Below are positions 12,201 through 43,807 of a stretch of DNA of 64,000 bases, one piece after another. This DNA is from Styela clava (Eukaryota; Chordata; Ascidiacea; Stolidobranchia; Styelidae). The stretch lies in contig NC_135259.1 of assembly GCF_964204865.1 (NCBI RefSeq), positions 12,844,974-12,908,973 of the forward strand, read 5' to 3'. The notes beneath the pieces were generated by a model, which saw nothing but the letters and a program-made list of their open reading frames with translations, was not told the DNA's origin and made no database searches. The position numbers and the translations under genes are program-made. Every line of letters starts with the position of its first letter. The stretch's first letter is position 1.

Positions 12201-15200
12201 AAATATTAGAATTTTTAAAGGCATAATGGATTTTTGATTGTTGTTGCCTGTATTACAAATAAATTTTATTACTCTCAGAAAATATACACAATTATCTGAA
12301 TACATGTAGTATTTTTGTCAATAGACTTGACTATTATCGTAATATCATGGTACCACTGATAAAAAGCGTCAGTCAACTTCTTGGCTATCTTTTCATATGG
12401 TCATTTGTACAAATGAATAATTTTAATGAACTGACTGTGTCACAAGTTGCTATTATTTTTTATCGATAGCTATAAACTTTGTGTACATATACTGTTGGTT
12501 TGTGGCTTTATTCTGATATTTCTATTGAAGCTTATTTCCTAATTTACTGGGTTTTAATCAACTAAAACAAAAATGTGTTATTTTCGATTTTAGAATGTAT
12601 TCGGAATTCCAGATTCGAAAACATTATTTTAGAATGTATTCGGAATAGTTTAGTATTCGGAAATGGCCATCCCTGCATACGACACGCTATGTATTTACAA
12701 TAATACCGTTAAGTAAATTTCATTTTCTTTCAGAGGAATACTGCGAAAGACTCGGAAAATTGGGAGGAATTGAAATATTACTCCGTATAGTAGATTCTGA
12801 TAATATACATTTGACATCTCGTCATCGGAGTCTTCTATTGATGATCTTAAAAAATTGTGCGGAAAATTCAGGTTTGATAGGACTCAAATCGATAATACTT
12901 TTATCGCTGTATTAATGATTTTACCCAGATTTGATGCCGTGATATAAATAATAAATATGGTGATCTTACTTTAACAATGACACAAGTTGGGCATACCATT
13001 ATATAACTGGTCGGAGTTTTGTGTACCTAATTACTCCTAATTTTTCTATGATGTTGTATTATTGACTCTATGTTTTCTGAAGGCATGTATATCAGCGTTT
13101 CCCAAAGGGTGCGCTGCGGCGATTTGCTAAGAGCGCCCTGAAAATTAATAGAATTGTGTTAAACATAATGCTGTTTATATGAATCGATAAATTCATTTTA
13201 CCTTTTTATGTCGTTTACATTTTGTTGCGTAGTGTCTGCCCCTATTGTTACGATTTCGCGAGCTGCAGTTTATTTATATTCGGAACCGAGTTTATCGAAT
13301 ATGAGTGATTTTTTAGTATTTCAAAGGAAAATCAGGCAGAGATGAGGAAGAAGTGTCACCTTTTGCCTTTAATCCTTAAGCCTACATTTTACAAACTTCA
13401 AAATGCTTTAAGTACACATTATGGCTATTCCAAGTGACACTACAGGACAATTCCAGAAATTTTGCATGTTGTTAGATGCAATATATTTTTACATTTTCAG
13501 CTACATGTTTTGTTTCATTTTCCAATCAATTGCTTTATTGAATATGGAAAAAATTGCACAAAAGTTACACACGAGTGGATATAAAAAATATAGTAAAATA
13601 TAGCGTGACACTACAGGACGGCAAATGCACCATGGATTAACGTTACATTGAGTTGTGCTGTAACTTTTTGCGATGGTTCAGCAGGAGCCCATAATATTTT
13701 CTGGTGCAGTAGCTGAAGGACCCCCCTATGTGTTGCTCAAGTTACTTAATGTAACACTGTAAATCTAGGCCAATAATGTGCTAATGGTATGTGACACTAC
13801 AGAACGTGACATTACAAGACATTTTTCCACTTAGGAACAGCGGCCTCTATCATCTTTTAAAATTCTGGTAATAAATCTTTATATGGGTGAAGAAATGCCC
13901 TACAGCACTACAATCATTTAAACTTTATAAACTTAAATCCAGTGCGTCTATTTCATATGAAATAACTGTATCACACAATCAAACACTTTGTGTCACGAAT
14001 CATCACGAAATATGTCAATTATACCAAAACTTCTACATTTCAGGACATTTTTTATAAAACAATCAAAAACCGGGGTGAAATTTCAACTTTTTCGGTGAAA
14101 TAAATAATGCAGTCCATGAATTTTCAATGTCTTTTGATATAAAAGAATTCAAAATAATTACTTTTACTAAACTTTTAAAAAATTTGATGAAATTCAACTT
14201 TTGCCTGGAATGGCCTATTAACGAACACAAAATTGAGTTTTAAAGACAGCAATTTTGTTTCGTGTGAGTGCGCCCTAAGTTTTTTCCCCAGACAATTTGG
14301 AGCCGCACGAACAAGAAGTTTGGGAACCGCCGAATTGTATACTATAACAGTAATCGAGTTCAAAGTTTTGCGTCACAATTCCACATATTTTATTCTGTAA
14401 AGGGGTCTATCTTATTCCAACAACGATATTAAATAAACATATATTTGGTTGTGTTTTTCATATTTTCATCTCATTATTAATCAATCAACTTCTTATTTTA
14501 CTTAATCATATTCACGGGTTCGAACAAGGCCTTGTATTAGAATAAATTGAATACTAATGACTAACGATATTTAATCGGCCAAAATATAAGAAATCATATG
14601 AAGAATAGCAATCCAACACGATAATGTCTCGTGTGCTGGCCGTAATATACAAGACGGCGAAATAATGTCCAACATGCTCCATGCAACACACGGCGGAATT
14701 CTTATTTATCATGTCCTCACAATATAATATAGAATGGGAATAACTTTATTAACTAGTTGTTTGTACCATTTTAGAAGCAGCCCAGCGAAAGCTGATAGAG
14801 TACAACGCTGCGTCGACGATAGTCCATCTAATGAACACTGTACAAGACGATGAACATTTCAACAAAATCGCAGCATCTGTTTTGAATTATTGCATGCGAG
14901 ATTTAAAAGGTGAATAGTATTTTATTCGAATTTTTTTATGCCCATCACAACTGCTTGTGATATCAGCTCAGCTAAATTTAATGCTTTAACCTCTTGGCCA
15001 TTGCGGTCATTTTACTTGGAGCAGAACCCAACTGACTTTAAGGTTATCTCAACTTTCCATCTTTAACAAATTTATAAATAATTTTCTGGCGTTAGATGTG
15101 CCCGATCGATGCGAAAAAGAAGTTGATAATAGTGACGAAGCAGACGACACCTCGTCGACGAAAAGTTCAACAGATCATGAATGTGCGAAGAAAGATACTA

Positions 15201-33359: not shown

Positions 33360-33367
33360 CCTAAGTT
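33360..33367 (+). repeat. Left target-site duplication
   Basis: CCTAAGTT, identical to 41523-41530, directly abutting the first base of the terminal inverted repeat. Confidence 0.88.
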
Positions 33368-35120
33368 GGGTAGTTATAAAATGGCTATGTCCCATATGTC
33401 CGCTATGTCCCTACTAAAATGGCTATGTCCGCTATGTCCCTACTAAAATGGCTATGTCCCATCTAAAATTGCGACTCCGATATTTTCCTACTACAATGAC
33501 TATGTCCGCTATGTCCCTACTAAAATGGCTATGTCCGCTATGTCCCTACTAAAATGGCTATGTCCCATCTAAAATTGCGACTCCTATATTTTCCTACTAA
33601 AATGACTATGTCCGCTATGTCCCTACTAAAATGACTATGTCCGCTATGTCCCTACTAAAATGGCTATGTCCGCTATATCCCTACTAAAATGGCTATGTCC
33701 CATCTAAAATTGCGACTTCGATATTTTCCTACTAAAATGACTATGTCCGCTATGTTCCTACTAAAACGGCTATGTCCCTACTAAAATGGCTAAGTCCCAT
33801 TTAAAATTGCGACTCCGATATTTTCCTACTAAAACGGCTATGTCCCTACTAAAATGGCTATGTCCCATCTAAAATTGCGACTCCGATATTTTCCTACTAA
33901 AATGACTATGTCCGCTATGTCCTTACTAAAATGGCTATGTCCGCTATATCCCTACTAAAATGGCTATGTCCCATCAAAAATTGCGACTCCGATATTTTCC
34001 TACTAAAATGACTATGTCCGCTATGTCCCTACTAAAATGACTATGTCCGCTATGTCCCTACTAAAATGGCTATGTCCGCTATATCCCTACTAAAATGGCT
34101 ATGTCCCATCTAAAATTGCGACTCCGATATTTTCCCACTAAAATGACTATGTCCGCTATGTCCTACTAAAATGACTATGTCCGCTATGTCCCTACTAAAA
34201 TGGCTATGTCCCATCTAAAATTGCGACTCCGATATTTTCCTACTAAAATGACTATGTCCGCTATGTCCCTACTAAAATGGCTATGTCCCATCTAAAATTG
34301 CGACTCCGATATTTTCCTACTAAAATGACTATGTCCGCTATGTCCCTACTAAAATTGCTATGTCCCAACTAAAATGGCTATGTTTCATCTAAAATTGCGA
34401 CTCCGATATTTTCCTACTAAAATGACTATGTCCCTACTAAAATGACTATGTCCGCTATGTCCCTACTAAAATGGCTATGTCCGCTATATCCCTACTAAAA
34501 TGGCTATGTCCCATCTAAAATTGCGACTCCGATATTTTCCTACTAAAATGGCTATGTCCCTACTAAAATGGCTATGTCCCATCTAAAATTGCGACTCCGA
34601 TATTTTTCTATTAAAATGACTATGTCCCTACTAAAATGGCTATGTCTCTACTAAAATGGCTATGTCCGCTATATCCCTACTAAAATGGCTATGTCCCTAC
34701 TAAAATGGCTATGTCCCATCTGAAATTGCGACTCCGATATTTTCCTACTAAAATGACTATGTCCCTACTAAAATGGCTATGTCCGCTATATCCCTACTAA
34801 AATGGCTATGTCCCATCTAAAATTGCGACTCCGATATTTTCTGACTATGTCCGCTATGTTCCTACTAAAATGACTATGTCCGCTATGTGCCTACTAAAAC
34901 GGCTATGTCCCACTAAAATGGCTATGTCCCATCTAAAATTGCGACTCCGATATTTTCCTACTAAAATGACTATGTCCGTACTAAAATGGCTATTTCTCTA
35001 CTAAAATGGCTATGTCCCATCTAAAATTGCGACTCCGATATTTTCCTACTAAAATGGCTATGTCCCTACTAAAATGGCTATTTCCGCTATGTCCCTACTA
35101 AAATGGCTATGTCATCTACT
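33368..35120 (+). repeat. Left inverted terminal array of the transposon
   Basis: Tandem array of a few interchangeable modules: CTATGTCCCTACTAAAATGG (about 20 bp), a CTATGTCCG insert before it, and a longer module CCCATCTAAAATTGCGACTC followed by CGATATTTTCCTACTAAAAT. Every module contains a version of the terminal words AAAATGGCTATGTCC. The module order is irregular. The array fades at about 35120 into the transposase 3' region. Confidence 0.92.
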
Positions 35121-35270
35121 ACATTTTTAATATAGCCATGCATATCTGAGAAAAAAGCTAGTATATGTCTTGATGCAATTAAAATAAGTTTATTGCTTAG
35201 GCATATTAACGAATTGTGTCAAGGGCCGACTCTATCAAGGTCTACATATTTAATAGTCATTAATGAAAAA

Positions 35271-35870
35271 TTATATTTTTCGAGTCTTTCTCTTCCTTTT
35301 TTCTCCCTTTTTCAATCCAGCTGTTTGTGATGGAGTTATTGTTTGCAATTTACCATCAGTTGATGAACAAAGACGAGGAGGACATTTATCAGGGGAAGAC
35401 AACTGAACACGTTGTAAAAAATCTTTAAAATATTTATTTCGTTCGACTTCCGTCATCAGCATCCAAGTGTATACGGACAACGAAAATTGGGCATATGGTC
35501 CGTACAACGTGTATGGCCCTTGCTTCAACAGTGCCTTTCTCACATCGGTATACGACGACTTGATTATATCACCAAGCATGTGAATTAAATCAGGAAGTTT
35601 ATGTTGTCTCCAATTGGCAACGCATTTCAATACATGGTTTAAGGACTCGTTGTTGTTATTTGTCCACAGGTATCCATTTGTATGTGACTTTTTTTGCCAA
35701 ATATTATTTTTAAATAACGGAAGAAATCTTGTTTTGAGGTATCCAACAACCTTTGCACCTGGTTTTACAGTACGATACGACTTCTTCAGTCTTTGAATCA
35801 AACTCTTTTTCATTTTGGCAATGAAACAAACCGAAAACTTCACTAACAATTGATCTCCGGAGGTTTTCAC
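35271..35870 (-). CDS. Transposase C-terminal segment in a shifted frame
   Basis: A 199-codon frame that overlaps the end of the main transposase frame and continues the family-like sequence: NNNNESLNHVLK carries the acidic residue expected third in a MULE DDE core (codon at 35646-35648). The C-terminal tail is basic (KKGEKRKRKTRKI). It belongs to the same protein as the frame at 35710-38181, separated by a one-base-type shift near 35740-35830. Whether this is a mutation, a sequencing error or programmed frameshifting cannot be told here. Confidence 0.75.
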   Translation of the reverse strand: MKTSGDQLLVKFSVCFIAKMKKSLIQRLKKSYRTVKPGAKVVGYLKTRFLPLFKNNIWQKKSHTNGYLWTNNNNESLNHVLKCVANWRQHKLPDLIHMLGDIIKSSYTDVRKALLKQGPYTLYGPYAQFSLSVYTWMLMTEVERNKYFKDFLQRVQLSSPDKCPPRLCSSTDGKLQTITPSQTAGLKKGEKRKRKTRKI

Positions 35871-38181
35871 TGGTACCGACCTTATCCTTAAGATAATTTA
35901 TTAAATTTTCCCTCATGTGTCTGCTGCAAAGGACATGAGTTGAATCCGGGAAAGAAGATGTGAAAGCACCGTGTAGGGCCGATTCGTCATCAGTACCAAC
36001 GGTCAAGTTATCCAACTTTCTACCAAGTTTGGATTTTATGTTGGTAAAAAATTCTGTAAATGTGGATTTGTCAGATTTGTGGTGTAAAAATATAGGACCG
36101 AAAAACAATGGGTGTTCACCGGATTTACATGACAGCAAGGAAAGATTTTTGAAAACTGTAACTGTGACGTAGACTCGTCCTAAATTGAAGGTTTTATCAA
36201 TCCTAAGAATAGTTTTACCTGAGCAACAAAACCGCTTCAGATCCAAGCATTGCTCTTCAAAGAATAAAGTTACATTAACAGATTCCATTTTACTGTGGGT
36301 TACTTTTTGTACAAATTCGTTTGTTTGCGCCATGTTAATGACCTCTAATATCTCGTCAGCGTAATTTTTATGATATATTTTTATTCCTGCTCCCTGCTTT
36401 TTCTTTTTTTGATTGAACCTCGCATTTTCGATTTGTCTTAGATTTCTGGGGTTTTCCTCCGCATGTTGTTGAAGATTAACATAAAGTTTTTTTGCAGTAA
36501 CGCCTTCACATTTAGATATAATATTTTCCATAACGTCTGCTGATGTTCTTATGTACGCCTGTTGGTTTATCTTTGCATTTTCATGGGGTGTATGACCAGG
36601 AAATATGCCCTTGTATTCCACTACTGCCACATTCATACCAATGTGGCCATCGATCCAAGTGATTCGTCGTTCATAGCCAGTCGGTTGCCGAGCATAATAA
36701 TGTCCAATTCTCCATATTGCACTCGTTTTGGGTTGTGGCTCAATAACTGGATATGACAGTTTTTTTCCGTGGCGCGATCTTATGCAAAATCTCCCCCCTT
36801 TCTCATAAATATATTTAACCTCGTCATTTTGAAGTAAATACAGAGCGGAGGTATAATTGGTTTGTTTCCAGCTTCCGCAATCGTCTTCGAAAATTTGCTT
36901 CACTTTTTTCTCTTTTCTGCGTATGTTTTCGTTGTGATCAACTATGAAATAACAGTTGTTTTTCTCCCCCGTTGGTATTCTAGGACTAACTTTCACGGTT
37001 TTGTTTTTGAATATTTTCAACAATTCTGAAATACCCAAGAAAATACCAAACGGAAGCTCATGCCAGCCCTCGTCTACAGTGTTTTGGTCAGTCTGCGCAT
37101 AAATCATACTGGATATCATATTTTCAGATTCTTCAGTGTGGCAATTTGAAATCTCCAGACCTGGTCTCTCCAGATCAATGCAAGTATTCAAGGACAATTT
37201 TTGACTTTGTCGAAGGTGTCTCTTTAATAAAGGAACAAAGTGATTGGGTACGAAATCAATAAAATTTGCAGGAACATTTGTTGTAGTCCACATTATGTGA
37301 AAATATGGACCCCGTCTCGAAGAAACCTCCCTACCCTGGATACTTATTGAATAAGCGGAAGATCGCATGTCTGTTGGGCCGGTAGAAGGCTGAAAGGAGT
37401 TGTATGAAACTTTCAATGCGGCGCTAAGAGCCAATAAGCAATCCATCCCACAATGGCTGCCAATTGTCGCTGCACAGTGTAGTACGTTTTTCAGATCCAG
37501 AGTAACGATCCTAAAGTCTTTAAGGACTGGATGTAAATTTGTACTCTCGATGTCGTAACACTGGGGATAAGACAGAATTTCAATAATAGTTAAGAAGCTA
37601 AGATGAAGGAAATGATCCTGTGTACCAAACAAAGCAAAAGAAACTGCCCGATACAGGCAATTTCCATCACCTATCGTATATATCGGTTCATATTCATCTA
37701 AAACCGATGGCGACAATTGTTGTAACAGATTATTGGACGGTTCATCTAATTCACCCTGAAAATTCCTCGATTCTGGAAACTCAGGAAGCTTTACTTTATG
37801 TGCGTCCATCAGCATTTGCTCCTGCTCAGCTATTTCTTTCAGGCATTTATATACATTTTTGGTATCAAAACTCACACGATCAATTTTGTTCATAACTCTT
37901 CTCATCGACACCTCGAAATCATAGCCATGGTCAAGAAAAACACAAGATTTACAATAGTAAGATAGATGTTTTTCTCCCCATTGTTGCCGTAATTCGGTTT
38001 CTATCCGGGCACAATCGAAATGGCACCAGCGTTCACAACCAGAACATTCAATGCAACCAGTTGAACAATCCAAACCGCAAAACAAGCATTTGTATGATGA
38101 CTGATACATACCTCGATCCGGCAGAAATGAAAAAAATCGTTGTGCCAGCGTCGACAAATACAACATGGTGCCAACTCGCAA
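35710..38181 (-). CDS. PHD-OTU-MULE transposase, frameshifted near its C-terminus
   Basis: Protein of 823 codons in the interior of the large transposon. Residues about 32-79 form a PHD-like Cys/His cluster (CLFC, CSGC, WCHFDC, CKSC). Residues about 165-325 are an OTU-type cysteine protease: the nucleophile context GDGNCLYRA has Cys at 175 and the later NHFVPLL has His at 314. Middle sequence with RRITWIDGH and FPGHTPHENAK is typical of this transposase group but not a domain I can name. The MULE core has Asp 662 (LRIDKTFN), Asp 731 (GTDDESAL) and the C-x2-H pair at 752-755 (LCSRH). The third catalytic acidic residue is only in the overlapping frame at 35271-35870, so this frame alone lacks a complete triad. 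Met 25 is an alternative start just before the zinc finger. Confidence 0.85.
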   Translation of the reverse strand: MRVGTMLYLSTLAQRFFSFLPDRGMYQSSYKCLFCGLDCSTGCIECSGCERWCHFDCARIETELRQQWGEKHLSYYCKSCVFLDHGYDFEVSMRRVMNKIDRVSFDTKNVYKCLKEIAEQEQMLMDAHKVKLPEFPESRNFQGELDEPSNNLLQQLSPSVLDEYEPIYTIGDGNCLYRAVSFALFGTQDHFLHLSFLTIIEILSYPQCYDIESTNLHPVLKDFRIVTLDLKNVLHCAATIGSHCGMDCLLALSAALKVSYNSFQPSTGPTDMRSSAYSISIQGREVSSRRGPYFHIMWTTTNVPANFIDFVPNHFVPLLKRHLRQSQKLSLNTCIDLERPGLEISNCHTEESENMISSMIYAQTDQNTVDEGWHELPFGIFLGISELLKIFKNKTVKVSPRIPTGEKNNCYFIVDHNENIRRKEKKVKQIFEDDCGSWKQTNYTSALYLLQNDEVKYIYEKGGRFCIRSRHGKKLSYPVIEPQPKTSAIWRIGHYYARQPTGYERRITWIDGHIGMNVAVVEYKGIFPGHTPHENAKINQQAYIRTSADVMENIISKCEGVTAKKLYVNLQQHAEENPRNLRQIENARFNQKKKKQGAGIKIYHKNYADEILEVINMAQTNEFVQKVTHSKMESVNVTLFFEEQCLDLKRFCCSGKTILRIDKTFNLGRVYVTVTVFKNLSLLSCKSGEHPLFFGPIFLHHKSDKSTFTEFFTNIKSKLGRKLDNLTVGTDDESALHGAFTSSFPDSTHVLCSRHMRENLINYLKDKVGTSENLRRSIVSEVFGLFHCQNEKEFDSKTEEVVSYCKTRCKGCWIPQNKISSVI

Positions 38182-38410
38182 TAAAAAGATACCACACTCA
38201 TGAATTTTCCCAGCATAAACAATAAATGTGTTTTGCTAAATAAATTCTAAATTATACGCAGTCCAACAAGCACTTTAAAAATGCTATCTTAATTTTTGAT
38301 AATTTCCTTGTCTCTTTCTTCTTTACGGTATAGTCATACTATGTGGCAACGTTGGGAAAACTAGCTTGGAAATGTCCTTTGTGACGTCACTAATACGGAA
38401 TATATATTTA

Positions 38411-39063
38411 CAGGGTGGTCCAAGCATTGATACCTTATGTAGTCATCAATGGTCCAAGGTTGTCGCCTCGCGGGCCACAAAATTACTTTTGCATTGTTCG
38501 CGGGCCACAATAGTGCCAAGAATAGGTAAACAGTGCAATACAAAACAAACACTTTTATTGTGCAAATACATAGTTATCACTCAGACATAGCCATTACAGG
38601 CTAATAGAATCCGCATTCGATTTTTAGTTTTCTATGATGCCTACCGTGTTTCCGCGAAAATAAGACAGTGTCTTATTTCAATTTTCTTTCGAAAAATATC
38701 ACTAGAGCTTATTTTCGGGGAATGTCTTATAATTTTATTTATCAAAAACAAAATTAGAAAGTACAGAAGCGAAACACGGTATATTGTTAGCATATATTCC
38801 CGAACAAAAAGATAGAAAGCCAGATAACGATTTAGACTGCCAAGCACATCATTCAACTTCGCTAGTTGCCTCAGCTAGCCATAACACTAGTCAATTCAGT
38901 GACATTATTGATGTAACAAAATGTCAAAAGTTTTTTCTATTTAATTTTATTACGAAACAACACGAAATGCGATTTTTTGATTACTCTCCGAATGTGACGC
39001 GGGCCACAGATAATAAAGCGGCGGGCCACATGTGGCTTGCGTGCCTGGGTTTGGATCACCTTG
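38411..39063. mobile_element. hAT-type MITE nested in the large transposon
   Basis: Second copy of the MITE at 16705-17183: the same CGGGCCACAAAATTA and AGTGCCAAGAATAGGTAAAC words, ends CAGGGTGGTCCAA and TTGGATCACCTTG. It is longer because another element is inserted at 38644-38779. It lies upstream of the transposase start. Flanking bases do not show a clean 8-bp duplication. Confidence 0.82.
38644..38779. mobile_element. Tc1/mariner-like MITE nested in the hAT MITE
   Basis: Inverted ends CCGTGTTTCCGCGAAAATAA and, reverse-complemented, CCGTGTTTCGCTTCTG, flanked by TA on both sides (38642-38643 and 38780-38781). Comparison with the empty copy (GATGCCTATATTTATTG near 16893) shows that the insertion duplicated a TA. 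Confidence 0.85.
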
Positions 39064-39334
39064 ATATCTACCTTATAGGTAAGTTTTAAACAAAATATTA
39101 ACTACTACCATTCAATTTATTTTGACATTCTAGAATAGTTGATTTTAAAAATGTGCAAATTTTAAATCAAAATTAGAACTTGAAAAATTGCATATATAGT
39201 CTAGAATCTAGATACAAAGTAACAGTTGATTTGATGTTAATTTCAAAGTCTCTTTTCTTAACCCTACGTCACAATTGATTTTGTGGTGATGATCATGTTC
39301 GATATAAATCTATCAATTTTGATCCGATATTCCA

Positions 39335-41522
39335 GACATAGCTATTTTAGTTGAAACTAATCGGAATCGCAATTTTAGAACATAGCCATTTAGGACTTTG
39401 CCATTTAAGTAGGGACATAGCCATTTTAGTAGAGATATAGACATTTTAGTAGGAATATAGCGGACATAGCCATTTTAGTAGGGACATAGCGGACATAGTC
39501 ATTTTAGTAGGAAAATATCGGAGTCGTAATTTTAGATGGGACATAGCCATTTTAGTAGGGACATAGCCATTTTAGTAGGAAAATAGCGGACATAGCCATT
39601 TTAGTAGGGACATAGCGGACATAGTCATTTTAGTAGGGACATAGCGGACATAGTCATTTCAGTAGGAAAATATCGGAGTCGCAATTTTAGATGGGACATA
39701 GCCATTTTAGTAGGGACATAGCGGACATAGTCATTTTAGTAGGGACATAGCGGACATAGTCATTTTAGTAGGAAAATATCGGAGTCGCAATTTTAGATGG
39801 GACATAGCCATTTTAGTAGGGACATAGCGGACATAGTCGTTTTAGTAGGGACATAGCGGACATAGTCATTTTAGTAGGAAAATATCGGAGTCGCAATTTT
39901 AGATTGGACATAGCCATTTTAGTAGGGACATAGCGGACATAGCCATTTTAGTAGGGACATAGCCATTTTAGTAGGGACATAGCGGACATAGTCATTTCAG
40001 TAGGAAAATATCGAAGTAGCAATTTTAGATGGGACATAGCCATTTTAGTAGGGACATAGCGGACATAGTCATTTTAGTAGGGACATAGTCATTTTAGTAG
40101 GAAAATATCGGAGTCGCAATTTTAGATGGGACATAGCCATTTTAGTAGGGACATTGCGGACATAGCCATTTTAGTAGGGACATAGCGGACATAGTCATTT
40201 TAGTAGGAAAATATCGGAGTCGCAATTTTAGATGGGACATAGCCATTTTAGTAGGGACATAGCGGACATAGTCGTTTTAGTAGGGACATAGCGGACATAG
40301 TCATTTTAGTAGGAAAATATCGGAGTCGCAATTTTAGATTGGACGTAGCCATTTTAGTAGGGACATAGCGGACATAGCCATTTTAGTAGGGACATAGCCA
40401 TTTTAGTAGGGACATAGCGGACATAGTCATTTCAGTAGGAAAATATCGAAGTAGCAATTTTAGATGGGACATAGCCATTTTAGTAGGGACATAGTCATTT
40501 TAGTAGGAAAATATCGGAGTCGCAATTTTAGATGGGACATAGCCATTTTATAGGGACATAGCGGACATAGCCATTTTAGTAGGAAAATAGCCGACATAGC
40601 CATTTTAGTAGGGACATAGCGGACATAGTCATTTTAGTAGGAAAATATCGGAGTCGCAATTTTAGATGGGACATAGCCATTTTAGTAGGGACATAGCGGA
40701 CATAGCCATTTTAGTAGGGACATAGCGGACATAGTCATTTTAGTAGGGAAATATCGGAGTCGCAATTTTAGATGGGACATAGCCATTTTAGTAGGGACAT
40801 AGCGGACATAGCCATTTTAGTAGGGACATAGCGGACATAGTCATTTTAGTAGGGAAATATCGGAGTCGCAATTTTAGATGGGACATAGCCATTTTAGTAG
40901 GGACATAGCGGACATAGTCATTTTAGTAGGAAAATATCGGAATCGCAATTTTAGATGGGACATAGCCATTTTAGTAGGGACATAGCGGACATAGCCATTT
41001 TAGTAGGGATATAGCGGACATAGCCATTTCAGTAGGGACATAGCGGACATAGTCATTTTAGTAGGGAAATATCGGAGTCGCAATTTTAGATGGGACATAG
41101 CCATTTTAGTAGGGACATAGCGGACATAGCCATTTTAGTAGGGACATAGCGGACATAGTCATTTTAGTAGGGAAATATCGGAGTCGCAATTTTAGATGGG
41201 ACATAGCCATTTTAGTAGGGACATAGCGGACATAGTCATTTTAGTAGGAAAATATCGGAATCGCAATTTTAGATGGGACATAGCCATTTTAGTAGGGACA
41301 TAGCGGACATAGCCATTTTAGTAGGGATATAGCGGACATAGCCATTTCAGTAGGGACATAGCGGACATAGTCATTTTAGTAGGGACATAGCGGACATAGT
41401 CATTTTAGTAGGAAAATATCGGAGACGCAATTTTAGATGGGACATAGCCATTTTAGTAGGGACATAGCGGACATAGCCATTTTAGTAGGGACATATGGGA
41501 CATAGCCATTTTATAACTACCC
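39335..41522 (-). repeat. Right inverted terminal array of the transposon
   Basis: Reverse-complement counterpart of the left array: GGGACATAGCCATTTTAGTA modules, CATAGCGGACATAGTC inserts and TATCGGAGTCGCAATTTTAG modules. It is longer than the left array and not its mirror image in module order. Higher-order duplications with offsets of 435 bp and 318 bp can be traced by shared variants (see findings). Confidence 0.92.
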
Positions 41523-41530
41523 CCTAAGTT
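41523..41530 (+). repeat. Right target-site duplication
   Basis: CCTAAGTT, identical to 33360-33367. Confidence 0.88.
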
Positions 41531-41938: not shown

Positions 41939-43807
41939 ATGAGTGGGAGAAATTTACGTGACTTCGTTATTAGTCACAGAACTCAATATCAAGATGGAGA
42001 AGAACAAAAGCACTTGGTTACTAGAATGATGATGGGAATGGACAGCAATCGATACAAAAAAATCAATTACGAAGAAGCCAGAGAGGCTGCCTTCAGATTT
42101 AAAGACAATGCAGTTGCCACAGGTGCTCGATTAAATCATTTAAAAAATCGTGCACGTATTGGTAAAGAAAGACAACTAGTGAAACAACATTATCCAATTT
42201 GGCGTGAATCACATAAAGAATTACGAGATCATTTACGAGGAGCTGAATATGTTTATCAGTCTGTTTTTTCTGATTTGATAAAATCGTTGTCAAATATTGG
42301 GTATTTAGATTACGCAAGTGATTTAGAGCAATGCGACTCTGAAGTTGACGCTGAAATAAAGAAGTTTTCACAAGCGATTATTATGCCTATTCAACAATTG
42401 ATCAATGATCTTAAAATAAGATTACATCGCGGGACAAGTGGCCCGAACATTCACGAAAGTTTAAAAGAAGATGTTGATGACATAATGAATGAAATTGACT
42501 CTGTTAAATCTCAGTCATTATCTGTAGGAAAATGGCTTTCCCACCAGCAAATGATTTTGGAAGGAGACTTAGAAAAAGCTGATATCATTAGCAATGATGC
42601 TTATCCATCATTGCCACCAGTAGAGTCTGCCCTCCCAGTAGGGATTGTTCTTGCTGAATGCCCTGATACAGAATTAAAAAGCACTATTTTGAGACAGTTC
42701 ATTGACTTACATACCAACTATAATAGGCGTTTGAAGGAAGAACTAGCTCGCTTACAAGGTGCTGAAAGTCTTTTTTCAAAATCAAAAGACAAAAGTTGGA
42801 TATTTTCTGTGGTTTATGATCTTTATCATCGTCATATTTCACCCCAATCAAGAGAAAGTCTTCATTTTTTAATTATTGACATGCTCGCTCATCTTATATC
42901 GAAAAATAACAAGAGTGAAATTCTAGAATTGGAGTCCCATTTTTTGAAACAACGTTATTCAAAAAAACATTGTGAACTCTTGGTTTCAAATTATAACAGA
43001 GATTTCGGAAATTTAATATCCAATTCATTATCTGCATTTGCGGAAGCACGACATGTTTATGCAAATGCTGACATTGCTGCAAAAGATCGAGCCAAGCAAA
43101 GAAAAATTTGTGCTGCATTGCATGAAAAGGTTATTTCCCTACGAGCAAAACAAGAGGAAATCCTTCAACTGGAAGCAGAACTGGAAGAGAGAAGTAGAAG
43201 AAAACACTTTGAAGAAGAAGAAAAAAGACAATGGTTGGAAAACGAACGAAGATACAGAATGAAAAAAGAAATTACAAAATATCAACGACAAAGAAAAGCG
43301 ATGGAACAACAAAAACAAATGGAACAAGAGAAACGACTACAAATTTTAAAATCAGAGATTGAAAACCAGAGAAAAATTGACCAGGAAAGAGTGAATTATC
43401 GTGCTGAAAAAATCAAGGAAAGGAATGAAATTCAAGCCATTAAATTGAAAGCAAAAATTGAAGATGAAATTTTGAAACAACAAAGGCTTGATAACTTGCG
43501 ACAAACTGTCGCAGTTGAAGCTAAATTTGATCCTGAGCGTTTAGTCGCTGATACTATATCCAGTAAAGCACGACAGGGTATTGGGACAAATGAAGAAGTT
43601 TCAATTCAAGCTCCGTTATTTGATGTACATGGGTATTCTCAAAAACAAATTGAAGGAGATGTCAGATTGAGAGTTGAAGCTGCACTGAGAAATGCTGGAA
43701 TACATGAATCTGAATATGCTAGACGTGTTTTATCAAATATACCTCCTCCTACACAGCCAAGAAGGGATACTGATTCAAGTGCTTTGCAGTACATGTTTAA
43801 AAACTGA
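41939..43807 (+). CDS. CCDC148: Coiled-coil domain-containing protein 148, single exon
   Basis: Coiled-coil protein of 622 residues (human about 591) of unknown biochemical role. The whole family is recognisable: an N-terminal KQHYPIWRESHKEL stretch, PIQQLINDLK, the long charged coiled coil (about 380-520), and the diagnostic C-terminal block with KFDPERLVADTISSKARQGI, LFDVHGYSQKQI, RLRVEAALRNAGIHESEYAR and a PPPTQPRRD end. The frame is uninterrupted from ATG to stop, while vertebrate CCDC148 has many exons and every neighbour here is intron-rich, so this may be a retrocopy or a case of intron loss. AATAAA signals lie at 44002-44007 and 44019. TATTGTAG just before the ATG could be a trans-splice acceptor; that is speculation. 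Confidence 0.92.
   Translation: MSGRNLRDFVISHRTQYQDGEEQKHLVTRMMMGMDSNRYKKINYEEAREAAFRFKDNAVATGARLNHLKNRARIGKERQLVKQHYPIWRESHKELRDHLRGAEYVYQSVFSDLIKSLSNIGYLDYASDLEQCDSEVDAEIKKFSQAIIMPIQQLINDLKIRLHRGTSGPNIHESLKEDVDDIMNEIDSVKSQSLSVGKWLSHQQMILEGDLEKADIISNDAYPSLPPVESALPVGIVLAECPDTELKSTILRQFIDLHTNYNRRLKEELARLQGAESLFSKSKDKSWIFSVVYDLYHRHISPQSRESLHFLIIDMLAHLISKNNKSEILELESHFLKQRYSKKHCELLVSNYNRDFGNLISNSLSAFAEARHVYANADIAAKDRAKQRKICAALHEKVISLRAKQEEILQLEAELEERSRRKHFEEEEKRQWLENERRYRMKKEITKYQRQRKAMEQQKQMEQEKRLQILKSEIENQRKIDQERVNYRAEKIKERNEIQAIKLKAKIEDEILKQQRLDNLRQTVAVEAKFDPERLVADTISSKARQGIGTNEEVSIQAPLFDVHGYSQKQIEGDVRLRVEAALRNAGIHESEYARRVLSNIPPPTQPRRDTDSSALQYMFKN

Follow-up and report, generated by a model that had tools for sequence, protein, structure and literature searches.

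A recently amplified Mutator family with Foldback-type array ends and a predicted PHD-like, OTU and MULE protein in Styela clava

Within a stretch of 64,000 nucleotides from the ascidian Styela clava (assembly GCF_964204865.1, contig NC_135259.1, positions 12,844,974 to 12,908,973 of the forward strand; hereafter the window, whose own numbering is used below), positions 33368-41522 are occupied by an 8,155-bp transposable element. With a probability of about 0.85, this is considered to be one copy of a recently amplified family of DNA transposons of the Mutator superfamily (Mutator-like elements, MULEs) with Foldback-type ends, in which the terminal arrays would be bound by the transposase and the element moved by cut-and-paste. 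The anatomy of the element, the duplications at its flanks, the copy number of the family and its coding content are direct observations, and the window element is a genuine member of a transposon family that has recently been active and amplified.

At the structural level, the element is bounded by an exact 8-bp direct repeat, CCTAAGTT, at 33360-33367 and 41523-41530, a sequence with a single extra occurrence on the same strand of the window, at 14274. Immediately inside this target-site duplication, both ends carry in inverted orientation the same 34 bp, GGGTAGTTATAAAATGGCTATGTCCCATATGTCC, starting with GGGTAGTTAT (left terminus at 33368-33401, plus strand; right terminus at 41489-41522, minus strand); the match is perfect and the ends diverge beyond it. 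Each terminus opens a tandem array, of ~1,743 bp on the left (33368 to ~35110, plus) and ~2,190 bp on the right (~39333 to 41522, minus), the inner edges of both having been set by eye. Three monomers make up most of both arrays, one of 20 bp (TACTAAAATGGCTATGTCCC), one of 29 bp (carrying an extra GCTATGTCC) and one of 28 bp (ATCTAAAATTGCGACTCCGATATTTTCC), and the motif [GA]CTATGTCC, read in each array's own orientation, is found 63 times on the left and 91 times on the right. In total, 578 inverted pairs are present in the element, the 25 longest of which are 93-98% complementary and reach up to 392 bp. The coding region lies between the arrays on the minus strand. An earlier note on this DNA had described identical 8-bp flanks, a perfect 34-bp inverted terminal match and inverted arrays of about 1.75 and 2.2 kb in a Mutator-like element with Foldback-like ends, all of which is borne out by the measurements, the MULE core, the 8-bp duplications and the inverted tandem arrays. 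It had also presented the element as complete and as carrying one coding unit, which is correct for the ends and the duplication, both intact, and for the PHD-like, OTU and MULE content, but not for the gene itself, which is frameshifted and split over two frames in this copy.

Evidence of a family came from a search of the 376.6-Mb genome with the first 25 bp of the terminus, in which up to three mismatches were allowed: 63 matches were obtained, compared with one for the reversed control. Plus and minus ends lying within 50 kb of each other were paired by hand, yielding 14 pairs and 35 termini outside pairs, and the flanks were read for 13 of the pairs, the one left out being an 81-bp pair on contig C8. 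An exact 8-bp duplication flanks 12 of these 13, and all 12 sequences are different: CCTAAGTT in the window, ACGGCAGA and CTTCTAGT at two copies on C4, ATATCGAG on C10, CACCGTAC on C19, CCGCGGTC and GGTACCGG on C2, CTTATGTC on C6, ATTGTGGC on C17, GTATGCTA and ATTCCTGG on C3, and GCCTCAGC on C13. Transposase matches were found inside eight of the 12 duplication-flanked copies, in agreement with the claim that array and transposase are mobilised together. The other four (7,267 and 4,949 bp on C3, 4,412 bp on C13 and 2,280 bp on C4) gave no transposase in a protein search that scored 55 of 127 candidates. In three of these four copies, 197, 510 and 349 bp of array at one end match the window element, and the interior portions examined show no match to it at E ≤ 1e-10. 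Regarding the age of the family, the window copy shares 99.17-99.36% nucleotide identity with four other copies and 97.94% with a fifth, counting mismatches only, with gaps excluded, over the alignable part of 35271-38181. A search of viral contigs returned 56 pattern matches, none of them a relative by tblastn.

The 12 duplication-flanked copies span from 2,280 bp to 44,855 bp, and the long ones presumably hold later insertions; a 17.3-kb copy on C2, for instance, contains an open frame of 1,366 amino acids. The two longest stretches between matching termini, 44.9 kb at G000:C6:1963064-2007918 and 25.2 kb at C17:7671561-7696784, both have exact 8-bp duplications and presumably contain nested insertions. 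At the other extreme, two opposed imperfect termini, with three and two mismatches, lie only 81 bp apart at G000:C8:8854532-8854612 and form a near-minimal hairpin of family ends.

The arrays are specific to the family as far as they were followed. The 28-bp monomer has 369 matches in the genome and none for the reversed control, and each of the 100 monomer places listed of those 369 falls at a locus where a family terminus or transposase was also matched. In the four copies read at both ends, the arms measure 1,155-2,202 bp as extracted, some including up to 80 bp of core, and the numbers of monomer units vary between copies. When the arms were coded as strings of monomers, the order held in common exceeded the maximum of 100 shuffles in 9/9 comparisons, including that of the left and right arms within one copy; for the left arms of the window copy and of a C10 copy (win_L/C10b_L), the order score was 0.84, compared with a shuffled mean of 0.63 and a maximum of 0.68. 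At the inner edge, one motif closes the right arm in the window, C4 and C10 copies, as well as the equivalent arm of the C6 copy, which is reversed, and a different motif closes the left arm in the window, C10 and C19 copies. The simplest reading of these patterns is that each element passes its arms on and that these change by gain and loss of units. In the C2 copy at 14.49 Mb, the terminus appears three times in one array (G000:C2:14499367, 14500579 and 14501559, minus strand), at distances of 1,212 and 980 bp and with more array after each, which fits a block duplication.

Concerning the coding state of the copies, the main transposase frame of the window (35710-38181, minus strand, 823 codons) follows the other copies only up to about residue 811, beyond which the protein continues in an overlapping minus-strand frame, 35271-35870. 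This second frame holds the C-terminal part of the protein, with the sequence WTNNNNES and the third catalytic residue of the DDE triad, the Glu, at ~35646-35648. The window copy is thus frameshifted and no longer coding-competent. The C4 copy, in contrast, has 956 codons without a stop, running from before the PHD-like finger to past the DDE Glu; other copies are disrupted by stops, shifts or insertions.

Three domains can be predicted along this protein, all on the minus strand of the window: a PHD-like C4HC3 zinc finger (residues 30-81, 37939-38094), an OTU cysteine-protease-like domain (residues 160-320, 37222-37704) and the MULE (DDE) transposase core (residues 659-758, including D662 and D731, 35908-36207). 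The core matches Pfam MULE at the window locus with 30.1 bits in a genome-wide search, above the cut-off, and together with an 8-bp duplication, within the 8-11 bp of the Mutator superfamily, it places the family among the MULEs. Support for the other domains came from two sister OTU-MULE families of the same genome, each read at one locus. The first, L009 (G000:C10:8542200-8552100), has a 992-codon open frame whose protein (971 amino acids, 34% identical to that of the window) reaches 28.5 bits for OTU and 28.1 for MULE, both above the Pfam cut-off, and has the PHD-like C4HC3 pattern of Cys and His residues in common with the window protein. The second, L065 (G000:C5:7308500-7318400; 889 amino acids, 31% identical), scores 27.5 bits for OTU, above the cut-off, and has no PHD-like part. 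A profile built from the window, C4 and L009 proteins retrieved from the PDB the OTU protease OTUD1 (E 1.8e-5) and the PHD finger of CXXC1 (E 2.7e-4). Residues D172, C175 and H314 of the OTU domain, which we take from OTU motifs to be its catalytic Asp, Cys and His, are invariant in all four aligned rows and in 3/3 families, so that by profile and by conserved residues the domain is a predicted member of the OTU class. In the MULE core, D662, D731, C752 and H755 (D, D, C-x2-H) are likewise invariant in the four rows, and the Glu, E846, is found in each of the three full-length frames.

Judged from the alignments, the OTU domain is conserved between families to the same degree as the MULE catalytic core: identities for OTU and MULE are 41% and 42% against L009, and 34% and 33% against L065, compared with 14-24% in the spacers that flank OTU. 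Since L065 is devoid of a PHD-like part and OTU is kept in all three families, it is OTU and not PHD that constitutes the constant partner of the MULE core. The array design is also common to the three families. The L009 element has inverted ends of ~970 bp with 166-bp tandem repeats and a near-match duplication only at its flanks. In the L065 element, the inverted ends measure ~750-850 bp and contain tandem repeats of 10 bp and of 123 bp, and the flanks carry an exact duplication of 9 bp, CGAATAGAA; the L065 family comprises five places of similar score whose open frames run to 908 codons (C5, C14, C18 twice and C220). By eye, the repeat sequences of the three families look unrelated; as far as seen, they have the protein and the array design in common, and not the repeat. 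At a distance of some 5 kb, the L009 element is accompanied by a 797-bp inverted-ended stretch (L020 5195-5991, G000:C10:8537694-8538490), whose termini resemble GGGTAGTTAT with four mismatches each against the 25-bp terminus; no clear duplication was found at its flanks.

Several results weigh against the interpretation of the window element as a copy of a recently amplified MULE family of this make-up. At the domain level, Pfam matches on the window frame are all weak (MULE 26.3 bits for a cut-off of 27.6, OTU 16.6 for 23.3 and PHD 14.5 for 24), Pfam PHD was not matched in L009 at E ≤ 0.1, and the MULE match of L065 stays below the cut-off with 16.6 bits. A single-sequence AlphaFold2 model of the window OTU fragment was too poor for use, with a mean predicted local distance difference test (pLDDT) score of 38.6. 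At the family level, one of the 13 pairs with flanks read, that of 1,520 bp on C14, has no matching duplication; four copies can be counted as transposase-free only provisionally, because of the limited share of candidates scored; and in its C-terminal tail the C4 frame is ~13 residues short of the C2 copy. When five copies were compared with C4, 25 of the 102 distinct substitutions were synonymous, a fraction of 0.245 against 0.254 for random ones; there is no synonymous excess and therefore the recent copies are not visibly constrained, which is the expectation for copies drifting after insertion. As for the arrays, shuffling breaks a recurring monomer module, and part of the excess in common order may therefore be grammar alone, and the left arm of C4 and the right arm of C19 deviate from the inner-edge order of their counterparts.

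Tandem arrays in the inverted ends of MULEs are already known and are not new here; published systems are considered below through the accessible parts of their descriptions. Foldback denotes a type of structure and not a lineage, and the window family has this structure, with long inverted ends made of tandem repeats whose length varies among copies. In Drosophila, NOF is the protein of the FB/NOF elements. Like the window family, FB/NOF and the foldback element Tetris have long inverted tandem-repeat ends and have been proposed to belong to Mutator, Tetris with duplications of 8-10 bp but, unlike the family described here, without apparent coding capacity (PMC4079207). Array-ended MULEs proper have been reported as Rehavkus-1_TC (PMC10218199), Tm1 (PMC3169594) and Muta1 (PMC5225508), and a 2026 survey of arthropod MULEs gives terminal inverted repeats (TIRs) with a maximum of 1,193 bp in the text and of 1,527 bp in a table, PHD and OTU being absent as words from its main text (PMC13359780). 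No fusion of OTU, or of PHD-like and OTU domains, with a MULE transposase was found in the literature searched, a description in Repbase only being possible. Thus, of the undescribed family with array ends suggested in the earlier note, the composition of the protein stands as not previously found and the array ends do not. It is this PHD-like, OTU and MULE composition and its conservation that set the family apart from the known array-ended MULEs.

By description, the nearest known system is Rehavkus, which serves as outgroup to the MULEs and is described, per PMC6446971, in Repbase only. The odds are even that the window family belongs to the Rehavkus lineage proper, that is, to an already named outgroup of PHD-finger MULEs with minisatellite termini. 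Both have a MULE-like transposase, a long element and arrays within the inverted termini, and the PHD finger of Rehavkus may have a counterpart in the PHD-like finger of the window protein: a PHD finger, a minisatellite and a 9-bp duplication are reported for Rehavkus (PMC6446971), and Rehavkus-1_TC measures 9.5 kb with 164-bp monomers (PMC10218199), to be compared with the 166-bp repeats of L009 and the 9-bp duplication of L065. However, the duplication of the window family is of 8 bp in all 12 matched pairs and not of 9, its monomers are of 20, 28 and 29 bp instead of 164 bp, its PHD match is below the Pfam cut-off, the L065 relative has no PHD finger, and OTU goes unmentioned in the accessible descriptions of Rehavkus, to which the likeness was judged by description and not by sequence. 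Because the duplication length differs and the comparison is by description only, the family is not filed here as Rehavkus. A further-reaching reading, according to which the OTU-MULEs form a distinct lineage whose deubiquitinase-like protease would be obligate for transposition and whose ends would necessarily be inverted tandem arrays, with the repeat sequence free to change, is tentative and rates somewhat below even odds. Array ends are not limited to OTU-MULEs in this genome, since long inverted sequences with internal repeats likewise flank a FLYWCH-MULE locus on C14.

The earlier note had brought up Phantom, a FLYWCH-bearing Mutator subclass with Foldback ends, a label that is now unsupported and most improbable. 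There is a resemblance to the Phantom-type Mutator/Foldback elements Tm1 of Meloidogyne and Muta1 of Aedes, which have inverted ends of short tandem repeats, duplications of 8-10 bp and non-autonomous derivatives (PMC3169594, PMC5225508, PMC6446971), those of Muta1 mostly with unrelated interiors (PMC5225508); some Phantom members even have no zinc finger, according to a table in PMC6446971, and the repeated inverted sequences of the C14 FLYWCH-MULE also speak for this assignment. However, the Muta1 TIR is just 145 bp long, with nine 12-bp repeats (PMC5225508), compared with arrays of ~1,743 and ~2,190 bp in the window, and the transposases of Tm1 and Muta1 have ~500 amino acids with a zinc finger, of the FLYWCH type in Tm1, and neither OTU nor PHD is described in the accessible parts of PMC3169594 and PMC5225508. 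In the window protein, PHD-like and OTU domains stand in place of FLYWCH: neither FLYWCH nor SWIM was matched in the window frames at E ≤ 1, nor FLYWCH in the C4 copy at E ≤ 0.1, whereas FLYWCH reaches 43.4 bits in another MULE of this genome. The label is unsupported because FLYWCH is lacking and blastp gives no significant similarity to the FLYWCH-MULEs of this genome (best E 0.072); hhalign does align the DDE core, yet with a Prob of 0.8 on a scale of 0-100 and an E of 0.067. Finally, that the inverted arrays are a satellite or a palindrome made by the assembly rather than the termini of a transposon can be rejected with near certainty, since, although tandem repeats are prone to assembly errors and one C2 array carries the terminus three times, the same termini stand against different flanks with different 8-bp duplications at 12 sites and all the monomer places listed are at loci of the family. 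A domesticated gene was also rejected, given the recent near-identical copies and the broken frame.

Returning to the recently amplified MULE family with Foldback-type ends, the following course of transposition is proposed, largely from what is known of MULEs. The transposase for the window element would be supplied by a coding-competent copy elsewhere in the genome and would bind many repeated sites in both inverted arrays, bringing the ends together. Cleavage at the GGGTAGTTAT termini would then be followed by insertion with an 8-bp staggered cut, and array copies without transposase may be moved in trans. The arrays would pass on by transposition and afterwards lengthen or shorten through unit gain and loss. 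In yeast, Muta1, whose TIR is of the array type, has been reported to excise and to reinsert (PMC5225508), and ends of this kind can therefore go together with activity. For the OTU domain, the probable role is one in cis, in which it would protect or process the transposase or chromatin partners in a deubiquitinase-like manner, and the PHD-like finger would tether the protein to chromatin; the hypothesis that OTU may stabilise or process the transposase or its partners draws on the conservation of the domain.

Two other features accompany the element. Between the coding region and the right array, positions 38411-39063 are occupied by an apparent old nested insertion with ends CAGGGTGGTCCAA and inverted CAAGGTGATCCAA, which we presume to be hAT-like, and which contains a further piece resembling a miniature inverted-repeat transposable element. 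At 38768/38769 the window copy is devoid of 243-247 bp that are present in the C4, C10 and C19 copies and, by match coordinates, in the C6 copy as well. Outside the element, an open frame of 622 amino acids (41939-43807, plus strand) begins ~0.4 kb past the right duplication, and the element is inserted in its likely upstream region. The product is coiled-coil-like by eye, gave no Pfam match at E ≤ 0.01, and is presumably similar to CCDC148.

Array-ended MULEs constitute a poorly described group, and what a specialist would not have expected among these results is that OTU is as well conserved as the catalytic core. The family offers a test of whether array ends serve as multi-site platforms for the transposase and of whether the OTU domain is required for transposition. 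Both questions are testable because a single genome provides a young family, the open frame of the C4 copy, partners that are probably non-autonomous, and two sister families that have diverged from it.

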